Assembly: GCF_014651635.1 (NCBI RefSeq)
Contig: NZ_BMXG01000024.1
Span: 1 to 63,128 of the forward strand
Direction: 5' to 3'
Source: Cerasicoccus arenae
GTDB lineage: Bacteria > Verrucomicrobiota > Verrucomicrobiia > Opitutales > Cerasicoccaceae
DNA: 63,128 nt
Below, piece by piece: positions 38,898-41,383 of this stretch. The notes under the pieces are model-generated. The model made no database searches, had not been told where the DNA came from, and saw nothing but the letters and a program-made list of their open reading frames with translations. Made by a program: the position numbers and the translations under genes. Each line of letters opens with the position of its first letter. The stretch's first letter is position 1.

Positions 38898-39317
38898 ATG
38901 AGTGAAGTGCAACCAACGAATAAAACGGTGCTTGTAGCTGATGACGATCAGGCTACGAGGACTTTTTTGGACGCCGCTGTTCGCCGACTTGGCCATGAGA
39001 CCATCCTCGTGAGCAACGGCAAAGACGCTTTTGATCAGGCAAAAAAGCACCGGCCCGACCTCATCTTACTGGATATCCTGATGCCTGATATCGACGGCTA
39101 TACGGACTTGCGATTGCTCCGGCTCAACTGGCGCACCCGGGATATTCCGGTCATCGTGATCTCGGGCTATGCGGATCAGAAAGCGGCCGATCGCTGTCTG
39201 ACTGCCGGGGCCAATTTTTTCCTGCCCAAGCCTGCTACGATTGCCCAGGTGCGCGCCGTGGTTAACAAGTTCCTAGTGCCCGTGGACCACGAGGGGGGGG
39301 GGGAGTCGGCAGGATAA
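38898..39317 (+). CDS. Single-domain response regulator (CheY-like)
   Basis: A 139-residue receiver domain with no output domain. Acidic pocket VADDDQ (14-17), phosphoacceptor Asp59 in LILLDILMPDIDGY, Ser89 in VIVISGYA and Lys111 in LPKPAT are all present. Asp59 and the surroundings indicate a functional phosphoswitch. Its histidine kinase is not in the window. The last five codons read through a run of 11 G (39293-39303), so the C-terminus and the 56-base antisense overlap with the HTH gene on the other strand depend on that tract. Divergent from panC. Confidence 0.92.
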   Translation: MSEVQPTNKTVLVADDDQATRTFLDAAVRRLGHETILVSNGKDAFDQAKKHRPDLILLDILMPDIDGYTDLRLLRLNWRTRDIPVIVISGYADQKAADRCLTAGANFFLPKPATIAQVRAVVNKFLVPVDHEGGGESAG

Positions 39318-39651
39318 CCATCCCCGCGCGGGCCAAAACCGTGCGCATTTCCTCCGGGCTCCGCCCACGAATCAGCGCGGCGAGGCGTTCCTCGAAATCT
39401 TCCGGCGTGTAGTTGGCTGTCTCCAACAAATACATCAGCAGCGCGTCGCGGTGAAATTGATAAACGTGGCGGGTGCGTTCACTGACGGGGCCAGCGGCCA
39501 AGCGATGACCCGGCAGGCGGCCAGAGTCGTAGCAATCACGTACGTATTGATCGGTGCGTCCCAGCATGGACGCGACGTCCTTGGTGTTAAACCAAGTTTT
39601 GTCGGTGGGTAGTAGAGGGGAGAAATGAGGTGATTTTAGTTTCTTTTTCAT
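39262..39651 (-). CDS. Excisionase/MerR-like helix-turn-helix protein
   Basis: A 129-residue protein. Residues 20-50, WFNTKDVASMLGRTDQYVRD and CYDSGRLPGHRL, form an excisionase-type helix-turn-helix (HTH_17 pattern: T-x-x-VA-x-x-L-x-x-S/T-x-x-x-V-R-x-x-x-x-x-G-x-LP). The rest is helical, and the C-terminal TPPPPRGP is encoded by the same 11-base homopolymer that ends the response regulator gene; the two genes overlap tail to tail by 56 bases. It follows the RHH gene by 18 bases, and that gap contains a 10-G tract. Probably a DNA-binding partner of the RHH protein; target unknown. Confidence 0.75.
   Translation of the reverse strand: MKKKLKSPHFSPLLPTDKTWFNTKDVASMLGRTDQYVRDCYDSGRLPGHRLAAGPVSERTRHVYQFHRDALLMYLLETANYTPEDFEERLAALIRGRSPEEMRTVLARAGMVILPTPPPPRGPRALGTC
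39293..39303. repeat. Run of 11 G in the tail overlap of two convergent genes
   Basis: Lies in the coding 3' ends of both the response regulator (plus) and the HTH gene (minus). A change in length would alter both C-termini at once. Confidence 0.95.
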
Positions 39652-39657
39652 GGCGGA

Positions 39658-39667
39658 GGGGGGGGGG
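39658..39667. repeat. Run of 10 G in the RHH-HTH intercistronic gap
   Basis: Occupies more than half of the 18-base gap just upstream of the HTH gene start, where the ribosome-binding site should be. On the coding strand it is poly-C, so length could affect initiation of that gene. Confidence 0.95.
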
Positions 39668-39669
39668 AG

Positions 39670-39876
39670 TTAGAGGCGGTTACGGTTAAACGGGCGTTCG
39701 GCAGGCTGGAGCGTGGCCGAGATATAACCCTCCGCACACAAGTGATCTTTGAGCAGGCTAGCGACTAGGCTCGAAACCGAGCGCTGGTCGTCCACCGCTG
39801 CATTGCGAGCCGCGTCCCGGAGGCTTTTGGGCAGTGAAATCGAAACGTTGACAGTGCGTTTTTTCATGACTTTCAT
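39670..39876 (-). CDS. Small ribbon-helix-helix DNA-binding protein
   Basis: A 68-residue protein. MKKRTVNVSISLPKSLRDAA gives the basic beta strand, followed by helices DDQRSVSSLVASLLKDHL, the Arc/CopG ribbon-helix-helix plan with V-x-I-S-L-P at the strand. It would dimerise and could be an antitoxin or an autoregulator, but no toxin-like gene is beside it. It starts the operon with the HTH gene and is divergent from the RHH-nuclease-like gene at 40014, sharing a 137-base AT-rich intergenic region. Met4 (39867) is an alternative start. Confidence 0.75.
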   Translation of the reverse strand: MKVMKKRTVNVSISLPKSLRDAARNAAVDDQRSVSSLVASLLKDHLCAEGYISATLQPAERPFNRNRL

Positions 39877-40013
39877 AGTGAACGAATCATCATTGAATAA
39901 TGCACTCTTGGCAACAACTATTTACTATTTTTGTTTATTTTATTATTGAGTGTTATCCTGCGTTCAGCATCAATGACTTACAGAACCCAATTTGATACAT
40001 CACTTTCAACAAC
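39877..40013. promoter_or_regulatory. AT-rich divergent intergenic region
   Basis: The 137 bases between two RHH-encoding genes are far more AT-rich than their surroundings and must carry both promoters. I do not see a convincing -35/-10 pair or a long dyad. Binding and mutual control by one or both RHH proteins is inference. Confidence 0.4.
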
Positions 40014-40634
40014 ATGGCCCAGGACACCCAAAAGCATAAAACAGTCGGCGTTTCTTTCAATCCGGAGCTCCGTGATCGAGCCAGTGAACGCTCCCGCAGC
40101 CTCGGTTTATCCTTCAGCCGCTACGTCACAATGTGCGTTGAGGCCGAGCTTAATGGCCGCCAGCCGCAGCTACTCACCGAGCTAGGGGCCGCGCCTGTCC
40201 GCGAAGACCTCAACCTCCAGTCCGCCATCGACGCCGGTAGCGACTACAGCGCGGCCAAGGCGGCGTCCATCGACTTTGAAGACGACATCGAGGAAATTCT
40301 CCGCGACGAAGACATTTGCTACACGCGTTACAGCTCAGTCGCCAATCTGCGCACCGACTTCCTCATCCAGCACGTTGACGAAAAAACCGACCGCACGATC
40401 CGTATTGCCTTGGAGTGCAAGCACAACCTCCGCGGCCGTTACACGGTGACTCTTGGCCAAGCGATCATCTTGCGCAGCATGCCGCAAATCGACGCCGTCG
40501 TCCTCTGCGTCCCTTACATGAAGAACTTCGACGACCACGTCCGCGAAACCTTCCACCAGCAAGACATCCCCATCGCCACCCCCGACAACGTCGTCAGCAT
40601 CCTCCGCAAGCTCTCAGGCCAAACGCCAGAGTGA
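40014..40634 (+). CDS. Ribbon-helix-helix protein with PD-(D/E)XK-like domain
   Basis: A 206-residue protein. Residues 8-47 (KTVGVSFNPELRDRASERSR and SFSRYVTMCVEAEL) form an RHH DNA-binding segment. Residues 100-170 look like a PD-(D/E)XK nuclease core: the strand NLRTDFLIQH supplies Asp115, IALECKHNL supplies Glu134-x-Lys136, and TLGQAIILRSM puts Gln149 in the position seen in Mrr-like enzymes. VVLCVPYMK follows as a core strand. Catalysis is inferred from spacing only; the domain could be inactive. I do not know a described family with this fusion. Divergent from the RHH-HTH operon. Confidence 0.7.
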   Translation: MAQDTQKHKTVGVSFNPELRDRASERSRSLGLSFSRYVTMCVEAELNGRQPQLLTELGAAPVREDLNLQSAIDAGSDYSAAKAASIDFEDDIEEILRDEDICYTRYSSVANLRTDFLIQHVDEKTDRTIRIALECKHNLRGRYTVTLGQAIILRSMPQIDAVVLCVPYMKNFDDHVRETFHQQDIPIATPDNVVSILRKLSGQTPE

Positions 40635-40789
40635 CGGCGGCGGCTTGGCGAGAGAATAGCGGAGCTTCTTTACTGGCTTTTTAAAAAATTGGGAAGTCTT
40701 GAGCGACTACTCTTAAATCCGCCGTGAACGTCAAAGTGTGGCACGGAGTGAGGCACGAACGGAGTTGTCCACGACTGCCTGGTTAGGTC

Positions 40790-41383
40790 TTATTTCGTCC
40801 AGATGATTGTCCTCTCGATGAAGTCTTTCCCGAACTCATGTTCTATGTAATGTTCGTATTGATTCCAAGTTAATGGAGTAGAGCTGACTTCTTTGATTTT
40901 CTCGACCCACTGGTCATCCCAAATTTCAGAAAAATATGAGAGTAGTTTTGTGAGTGTTGCTTTCAGGAGTTCTAGTTCATCTTCATCAATTGATGCGGAA
41001 TATTCCAGAGCATGTCGAAATAAGGCCGAAGAAAAGTTCGGAGCATAAAATTCTGCTTCTTCACAGTCATGTGGACAAAGCAATACGGGGATTTCGCTAT
41101 TTGTTTCATGGGGTGGAGACCAGCACCAGTAATCACCGCCTCCAGTATGGGCAAATGGGATGAAGCCGGGCTTATGATACTCTTCAAATTCAAAATTTTC
41201 TATTTCTGTTGCTTGATACCATTCCATATCATTCAGCCAAAAATATGGTATGTTAGATTCATTCAACTCAGATCCTCTGTATTCATCTTTCCATAATAGA
41301 CCGGAATGACTTTCTAGTGCTTTATAGCTTTCTGGAGCTTCAAGATTGAACCTATTATTCAGTGCTTTTGAGAAGTCATTCAT
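40790..41383 (-). CDS. SMI1/KNR4 (SUKH)-like protein
   Basis: A 197-residue acidic protein, markedly more AT-rich than its neighbours. The N-terminal PESYKALESHSGLLWKDEY and central PGFIPFAHTGGGDYWCW match the SUKH superfamily (SMI1/KNR4), where the latter segment is I-P-F-A-x-D-G-G-G-D-x-x. SUKH proteins are typically immunity proteins for contact-dependent or polymorphic toxins. No toxin gene is adjacent, so it may be an orphan immunity gene gained by transfer. It stands alone between 155 and 470 bases of non-coding DNA. A 19-bp palindrome lies about 40 bases upstream of its start. Confidence 0.7.
   Translation of the reverse strand: MNDFSKALNNRFNLEAPESYKALESHSGLLWKDEYRGSELNESNIPYFWLNDMEWYQATEIENFEFEEYHKPGFIPFAHTGGGDYWCWSPPHETNSEIPVLLCPHDCEEAEFYAPNFSSALFRHALEYSASIDEDELELLKATLTKLLSYFSEIWDDQWVEKIKEVSSTPLTWNQYEHYIEHEFGKDFIERTIIWTK

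Follow-up and report, generated by a model that had tools for sequence, protein, structure and literature searches.

We analysed a 63,128-nucleotide stretch of DNA from Cerasicoccus arenae (contig NZ_BMXG01000024.1, positions 1 to 63,128; hereafter the window), in which a gene for a 206-residue protein faces a pair of genes, for a small ribbon-helix-helix (RHH) protein and a helix-turn-helix (HTH) protein, across a shared control region. An earlier note on this DNA had read the arrangement as a DNA-targeted nuclease with dedicated regulators, perhaps a mobile or defence system. The three open reading frames (ORFs), their strands, the AT-rich 137-base region between them and residues D115, E134, K136 and Q149 of the 206-residue protein were all found where that note had placed them. 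The module comprises the following features.

40014..40634, + strand: gene for the 206-residue protein, with a probable RHH head (~7-50), a linker and a PD-(D/E)XK domain (~76-206, confidently modelled over ~87-205)
39670..39876, - strand: gene for the small RHH protein, 68 residues, first of the pair facing the 206-residue gene
39262..39651, - strand: gene for a winged HTH protein, 129 residues, with a C-terminal helical pair
39877..40013: shared divergent control region, 137 bases, AT-rich, 32% G+C
39652..39669: spacer between the small RHH and HTH genes, 18 bases, with a 10-G run at 39658-39667

The 3' end of the HTH gene overlaps that of a response-regulator gene on the opposite strand. 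We consider the three ORFs to be genes, and not chance readings, because the same arrangement is seen in other genera and because the ratio of non-synonymous to synonymous substitution rates (dN/dS) of the 206-residue gene is low, at 0.098-0.199 in all 12 within-genus pairs, of which two genera contribute six each. Homology and these substitution ratios together mark the 206-residue ORF as a genuine gene kept by purifying selection. The corresponding within-genus values are 0.070-0.436 for the HTH gene and 0.069-0.336 for the small RHH gene, for which one pair was saturated at synonymous sites.

The C-terminal half of the 206-residue protein is confidently modelled as a PD-(D/E)XK domain. In the AlphaFold2 model, built on a 15-row alignment, residues 91-200 have a mean predicted local distance difference test (pLDDT) score of 83-95 per ten-residue block, and the helix at 88-98, strands at 103-109, 112-121 and 128-135, helix at 139-154 and strand at 161-165 provide the alpha-beta-beta-beta-alpha-beta core of the PD-(D/E)XK superfamily. 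Comparison of the model using VIA-align gave Z scores of 11.8 for both Cdn1 and Can2, 10.2 for BsaWI and 9.9 for XisH. In total, 40 of 999 chains had Z of at least 8; many of the rows at Z 7-8 were unrelated proteins, such as response regulators and a G domain, and therefore the higher rows alone were used. The top Foldseek match, and the sole one below 0.001, was XisH (2inb, E 3.7e-4); MspJI, BamHI, a repair endonuclease and others ranked after it. The family PF18741 (REase_MTES_1575) matches 3 of the 15 family members, with a best E of 2.3e-5, the window protein not being among them. The window protein itself matched no Pfam or NCBIfam family above cut-off and gave weak PHROGs and PADLOC rows, and PDB sequence searches with it produced no row below E 0.16 (MazE6 appeared at 0.2). 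The nuclease fold proposed in the earlier note is thus supported by the model, by both structure comparisons and by the PF18741 matches. The predicted secondary structure also places the proposed active-site residues in the expected order on consecutive core strands, with D115 in strand 112-121, E134 in strand 128-135 and K136 just past it, and Q149 lies in the following helix.

The N-terminal head is probably an RHH domain, graded as probable and not as proven because its profile matches are sub-threshold and its model confidence is low. Some members show sub-threshold matches to RHH-fold families (NikA-like, CcdA, CopG_antitoxin, HicB), as would suit the RHH assignment made earlier, but the AlphaFold2 model of the head has a pLDDT of 41-63 and contains helices at 17-29 and 36-46 with no strand assigned within residues 1-60. 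A free-standing 99-residue protein in one related genome (G026, locus L035 2681-2980) contains a segment that is 54% identical to this head, without the nuclease-fold domain.

Among 132 related genomes, including that of C. arenae itself, 19 have a match to the 206-residue protein: 15 encode a full-length protein of the same class (RHH class), one encodes the RHH part only (G026), and three encode a protein with an XRE head in place of the RHH head (XRE class). The two classes split at 100/100 in a phylogenetic tree. The RHH-class protein is single-copy in each of its 15 genomes and groups by family (f21 at 96/93, f5 at 97/99 and f1 at 93/88), these being groupings of the protein tree with no species-tree comparison. 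The locus could be read in 14 of the 15 genomes, and we see that the HTH gene faces the RHH-class protein in all 14 and that the small RHH gene is present in 12; the remaining locus (G119) is split across two contig ends in a manner compatible with the same gene order. This genome-neighbourhood survey upholds the proposed association of the protein with its neighbours. In 8 of the 14 readable loci there is a third conserved ORF of 85-114 residues, with 22 invariant positions, between the small RHH and HTH genes. A profile of this third gene found it in 10 of the 132 genomes and in none of the four Cerasicoccus genomes, the spacer of the window standing at its place, and the two members tested gave no Pfam family match. 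Because the gene is present in three families, Cerasicoccus appears to have lost it, and on gene content the window holds a reduced form of a four-gene module.

In all four Cerasicoccus genomes the module adjoins panC and the response regulator. It lies elsewhere in other genera, where NCBIfam names cysS in L024 and rlmN in L030, L025 and L026 show the same protein start as the L024 cysS, and orn is also found nearby in relatives. The identified flanking genes are mostly housekeeping genes, the flanks having been read without a systematic defence-gene scan. In a phylum-wide sample, 10 of 387 genomes gave a match; six are RHH-class and three are XRE-class-like only, these nine all belonging to the same order, and the tenth matches the RHH part only, in a genome of the same class. 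Two peptide patterns run against a species-genome collection gave 20 loci, all from Verrucomicrobiota or its subgroups apart from a single Lentisphaerae bin that encodes a near-identical protein to that of the XRE-class locus L036. Plasmid, phage and IMG/VR collections contained no relative of the 206-residue protein, and the L036 protein likewise found no relative in plasmids. With one RHH-class copy per genome, a tree that groups by family, mostly housekeeping flanks and no relative in those collections, the suggestion of a mobile or defence system is not supported at this locus, although the next gene encodes a SUKH (immunity-type) protein, and we favour vertical inheritance of the module.

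Residue conservation was assessed over 27 aligned rows, comprising the 15 RHH-class and 12 XRE-class proteins. The alignment and tree omit L053 (same contig as L036), L054 (almost a duplicate of L036) and L056 (truncated by a contig end), and the XRE-class-like matches G047:C5, G056:C33 and G041:C86 are not part of the XRE-class counts. K82, D115, C135 and N138 are invariant across the 27 rows, position 134 is Glu in 26 and Asp in one, and position 136 is Lys in 18 and Arg in nine. Within the RHH class, D115, E134 and Q149 are each kept in 15/15 proteins, and position 136 is Lys in nine, including the window protein, and Arg in six. In the XRE class, Arg occupies position 136 in 3/12 rows and Gln149 is absent (0/12). 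Seven of the XRE-class rows (L050, L051, L052, L055, L057, L058 and L059) were fetched using a peptide pattern that demands EC(K/R)xN, so E134, C135, K/R136 and N138 are partly conserved by construction in those rows, D115 lying outside the pattern. This weakens only the two-class argument for E134. Across the 20 unbiased rows, position 134 is acidic in 20/20, C135 and N138 are present in 20/20, and position 136 is Lys in 14 and Arg in six. The retained acids argue for metal binding by the predicted domain.

The shared control region contains three elements that are alike in relatives.

39877-39894: imperfect inverted repeat AGTGA-N8-TCATT, beside the small RHH start
39921-39948: AT block of the TTTACTATTTT type
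39969-39980: ATCAATGACTTA

Between different groups, control regions resemble each other more than dinucleotide-shuffled sequences do in 38 of 77 pairs (no more than 2 of 200 shuffles scoring as high; the pairs are not independent and the count is uncorrected), and the region in the window does so in 6 of its 10 cross-group pairs. Of 14 regions, four contain a perfect inverted repeat with GTGA-like arms and seven contain it with a single mismatch, counted without a shuffled control; no repeat of that form was seen in the L027, L029 and L030 regions. A scan of 39200-40750 gave three promoter-like sites versus 0.5 expected, all being consensus matches only, and the repeats within 39600-40100 are a single family of 11-base direct repeats and a single, distant inverted pair. 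The possibility of several chromosomal copies of the control element was rejected, as the window AT block matches a single genomic site when up to 3 mismatches are allowed.

The XRE-headed sister class is found in a different genetic setting. The same genome encodes an XRE-headed PD-(D/E)XK protein (G000:C27, L039 6065-10206; the protein also at L002 1495-2121), the gene for which overlaps by 4 bases a gene for a 1172-residue protein that matches HmaA with E 0. PADLOC was run on the genes downstream of ten of the 12 XRE-class proteins in the tree (all but L055 and L058) and gave a match in 10/10, a count obtained with broad helicase and methylase models and no random-gene control. The matches are to HmaA; a type I methyltransferase (MTase); BrxF with BrxC; PDC-S22 in two loci, one of them with an MTase; HKD with Snf2; a type III MTase with a restriction endonuclease (REase); BrxA with BrxC; Helicase_II with a type III MTase; and LmuB, the weakest, at E 9.5e-16. 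Finding one kind of head protein ahead of effectors of several kinds is what would be expected of a regulator, and the XRE-headed proteins are possibly an undescribed family of defence-operon regulators. Since this sister class of the same domain precedes defence-type genes, the 206-residue module is likely linked with defence by descent. The 206-residue protein itself falls outside the XRE head-protein type: it belongs to the RHH class by tree, and its next gene (40790-41383) lies on the other strand.

The two facing proteins differ in how closely they follow the 206-residue protein. The small RHH protein matches RHH_5 (E 0.00097) and an Arc-like phrog (E 0.00043), values that are below cut-off or have none, yet are consistent with the assignment, and its homologues (E <1e-20) occur in 13 of the 132 genomes, all among the 15 that encode the RHH-class protein. 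The HTH protein matches HTH_17 at E 0.00043 (20.9 bits versus a cut-off of 27), and its model comprises a winged helix and a helical pair with a mean pLDDT of 84.2; Foldseek matches to the model are mostly MarR/MerR-type chains, with a best E of 0.015 and none below 0.001. At E <=0.001, with some weak matches included, the HTH family is found in 56 of the 132 genomes, 22 of which are <=1.1 Mb and many incomplete. In 41/132 genomes it occurs without the RHH-class protein, so the HTH protein is not a dedicated partner. A different XRE-type regulator of 144-182 residues, present in 23/132 genomes (E <=1e-10), faces the HTH gene in 16/16 loci that hold both, and the four genomes of group g3 hold both modules. 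The HTH relative L089 found no relative in phages, and the HTH profile found none in IMG/VR. No family name was assigned above cut-off, and the HTH family merits study in its own right. The second HTH module (L089-L112, for example L109 8720-10037) is present in genomes of 0.8-1.1 Mb. Some of its loci have a small ORF before the HTH gene, and sequence resembling AGTAGAAT is seen by eye to repeat among its control regions.

The divergent arrangement, conserved shared control region, single copy per genome and grouping by family are most simply explained by a regulatory circuit. Our tentative preference is for a vertically inherited DNA-binding regulatory switch that includes a nucleic-acid-binding, possibly cleaving, domain. 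We favour such a switch over a mobile toxin or defence nuclease. Because its domain is also found in XRE-headed proteins located ahead of restriction, BREX and Hma-type genes, the module is most likely a regulator specific to this lineage and related to the head proteins of defence operons. The 206-residue protein would work together with the small RHH protein and the winged HTH protein, and with the third small protein in other genera, at one conserved control region. The DNA-binding proteins of the module would bind the shared region and control both transcripts from it, thereby regulating their own expression. The probable target of the nuclease-fold domain is either a nucleic-acid signal or the bound site, which it would bind and might also nick or cut, thereby linking sensing to derepression. 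The direction of descent would run from defence-operon head proteins to the present module. In a bolder form, which we think improbable, a defence head protein domesticated in this order has entered a chromosomal circuit built around the widespread winged HTH protein, which persists even in genomes of 0.8-1.1 Mb, and the RHH-tethered PD-(D/E)XK domain cuts or nicks its own control region, or a matching nucleic acid, as the switching step; if true, site-specific DNA cleavage would be driving a transcription switch. Restriction-enzyme folds are known chiefly as effectors, and here one such domain stands behind two different DNA-binding heads, in one class before several kinds of defence-type genes and in the other within a conserved chromosomal module. 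If it acts as a sensor or switch, it would suggest how these bacteria regulate restriction-type systems and would offer an example of nuclease-fold domestication that is open to direct test. The earlier interpretation overall is partly supported: the PD-(D/E)XK fold and the co-occurrence with neighbours are supported, but a mobile or defence system at this locus is not.

Several observations weigh against the proposed switch. The RHH head of the 206-residue protein is weakly supported, and the small RHH gene is missing in G004 and G047. The control region of G004 is alike in 0/13 pairs and that of G047 in 4/13; the dissimilarity in G004, which lacks the small RHH gene, fits an operator for that protein, but the partial retention in G047 fits less well. 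The HTH tree, with six changes and several long branches, does not show one clade for the HTH copies of the module. As for the sister class, the gene scanned with PADLOC is the next one in only 8/10 loci and the second or third downstream in L057 and L128, and the breadth of the models used tempers the resulting matches. Finally, a regulatory domain with a purely structural role would not need such strict retention of D115, E134 and Q149 throughout the RHH class, a pattern just as compatible with an active effector nuclease.

Such an effector, defence- or toxin-like, aimed by the RHH head and restrained by the small RHH and HTH proteins, is somewhat unlikely in our view. It would explain the invariant D115, E134 and Gln149 and the presence of Lys136 in 9/15 proteins, including that of the window, and it agrees with a set of nearest folds that includes the nucleases Can2, BsaWI and MspJI, with the position of the sister class before defence-type genes and with the SUKH immunity-type gene that adjoins the 206-residue gene in the window. 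It is harder to reconcile with a family-grouped RHH-class protein that is single-copy in its 15 genomes and not found in plasmids, phages or IMG/VR; with identified neighbours that are mostly housekeeping genes (panC and the response regulator here; orn, cysS and rlmN in relatives); with genes that are divergent and not co-transcribed; with replacement of Lys136 by Arg in 6/15 proteins; and with an HTH family that lacks the 206-residue protein in 41/132 genomes. The opposite extreme, a catalytically dead nuclease fold retained only as a dimerisation or regulatory module, could account for Arg at position 136 in 6/15 RHH-class proteins and 3/12 XRE-class rows, for a head domain that differs between classes, and for the several kinds of downstream effector. 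Conservation of D115 in 27/27 rows, and of E134 and Q149 in 15/15 RHH-class proteins, makes this quite unlikely.

We also considered whether an excisionase-like HTH protein and an XisH-like fold might together form a site-specific excision or recombination system, or part of a mobile element. XisH is indeed the top Foldseek match, the HTH protein has weak matches to excisionase models (TIGR01764 at E 0.16 and Phage_Cox at E 0.038), and its distant relatives in L113 and L114 lie beside genes that read as transposase-like, neither of which NCBIfam named. The module adjoins panC and the response regulator in 4/4 Cerasicoccus genomes, and phage, plasmid and viral collections showed no relative (integrases and element ends having had no systematic search), which leaves this explanation very doubtful. 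The genes beside L113 and L114 are large and appear Mu-type-transposase-like by reading alone.

The module shares features with several known or related systems. The XRE-headed proteins of the same order have in common with the 206-residue protein the C-terminal domain with K82, D115 and the (E/D)C(K/R)xN motif, and differ in that they have an XRE and not an RHH head, lack Gln149, are co-directional with defence-type genes and have no facing HTH or small RHH gene. The known partner of XisH is XisI. The fold of XisH (PDB 2inb and 2okf) resembles the 206-residue domain, with 20% identity over 104-105 residues; its chains are only 128-129 residues long and so have no separate head domain, in contrast to the longer 206-residue protein. 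Type II toxin-antitoxin systems, in which RHH antitoxins occur, likewise combine RHH proteins with a potential nuclease. They are defined by a co-transcribed pair, whereas the 206-residue gene is divergent from its two or three facing partners. The 206-residue protein occurs in only 15/132 relatives, yet it is single-copy and family-grouped, with no relative found in the plasmid, phage or viral collections.

REase_MTES_1575 (PF18741) is described as a Vsr-type REase (PMC3710099), which places it near residues 1810-1990 in a large HEPN/helicase protein that has no RHH head, unlike the 206-residue protein. XRE-class relatives tested against PF18741 scored 16.8 and 15, versus a cut-off of 38.2. 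Regulators of defence loci include BrxR, a WYL-domain DNA-binding protein that binds inverted repeats (PMC9122601), RptR, which binds direct repeats in a promoter (PMC12255303), and the defence-operon regulators CapK/CapS, of which CapS resembles STAS-domain proteins (PMC13373217); the available portions of these three sources mention no PD-(D/E)XK domain in the regulator. By titles and abstract starts, no description of an RHH-PD-(D/E)XK module was recognised among the matches listed from open-licence PMC papers.

Some further features were seen around the module and elsewhere in the genome. The next gene after the 206-residue gene (40790-41383, - strand) encodes a protein of the SMI1_KNR4 (SUKH) immunity-type family, and the three other Cerasicoccus genomes have an orn-like gene on that side. 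There are 18 runs of at least seven G or C in the 63-kb window, including those at 39293-39303 and 39658-39667. A G/C run just upstream of the HTH start is present in the window, L022 and L023, and not in L021; such runs could be slippage-prone, or a start-site feature of Cerasicoccus. Elsewhere in the same genome (G000:C10, L119 8912-9698), two overlapping ORFs on opposite strands are each RHH-like, and may form a second divergent RHH pair.

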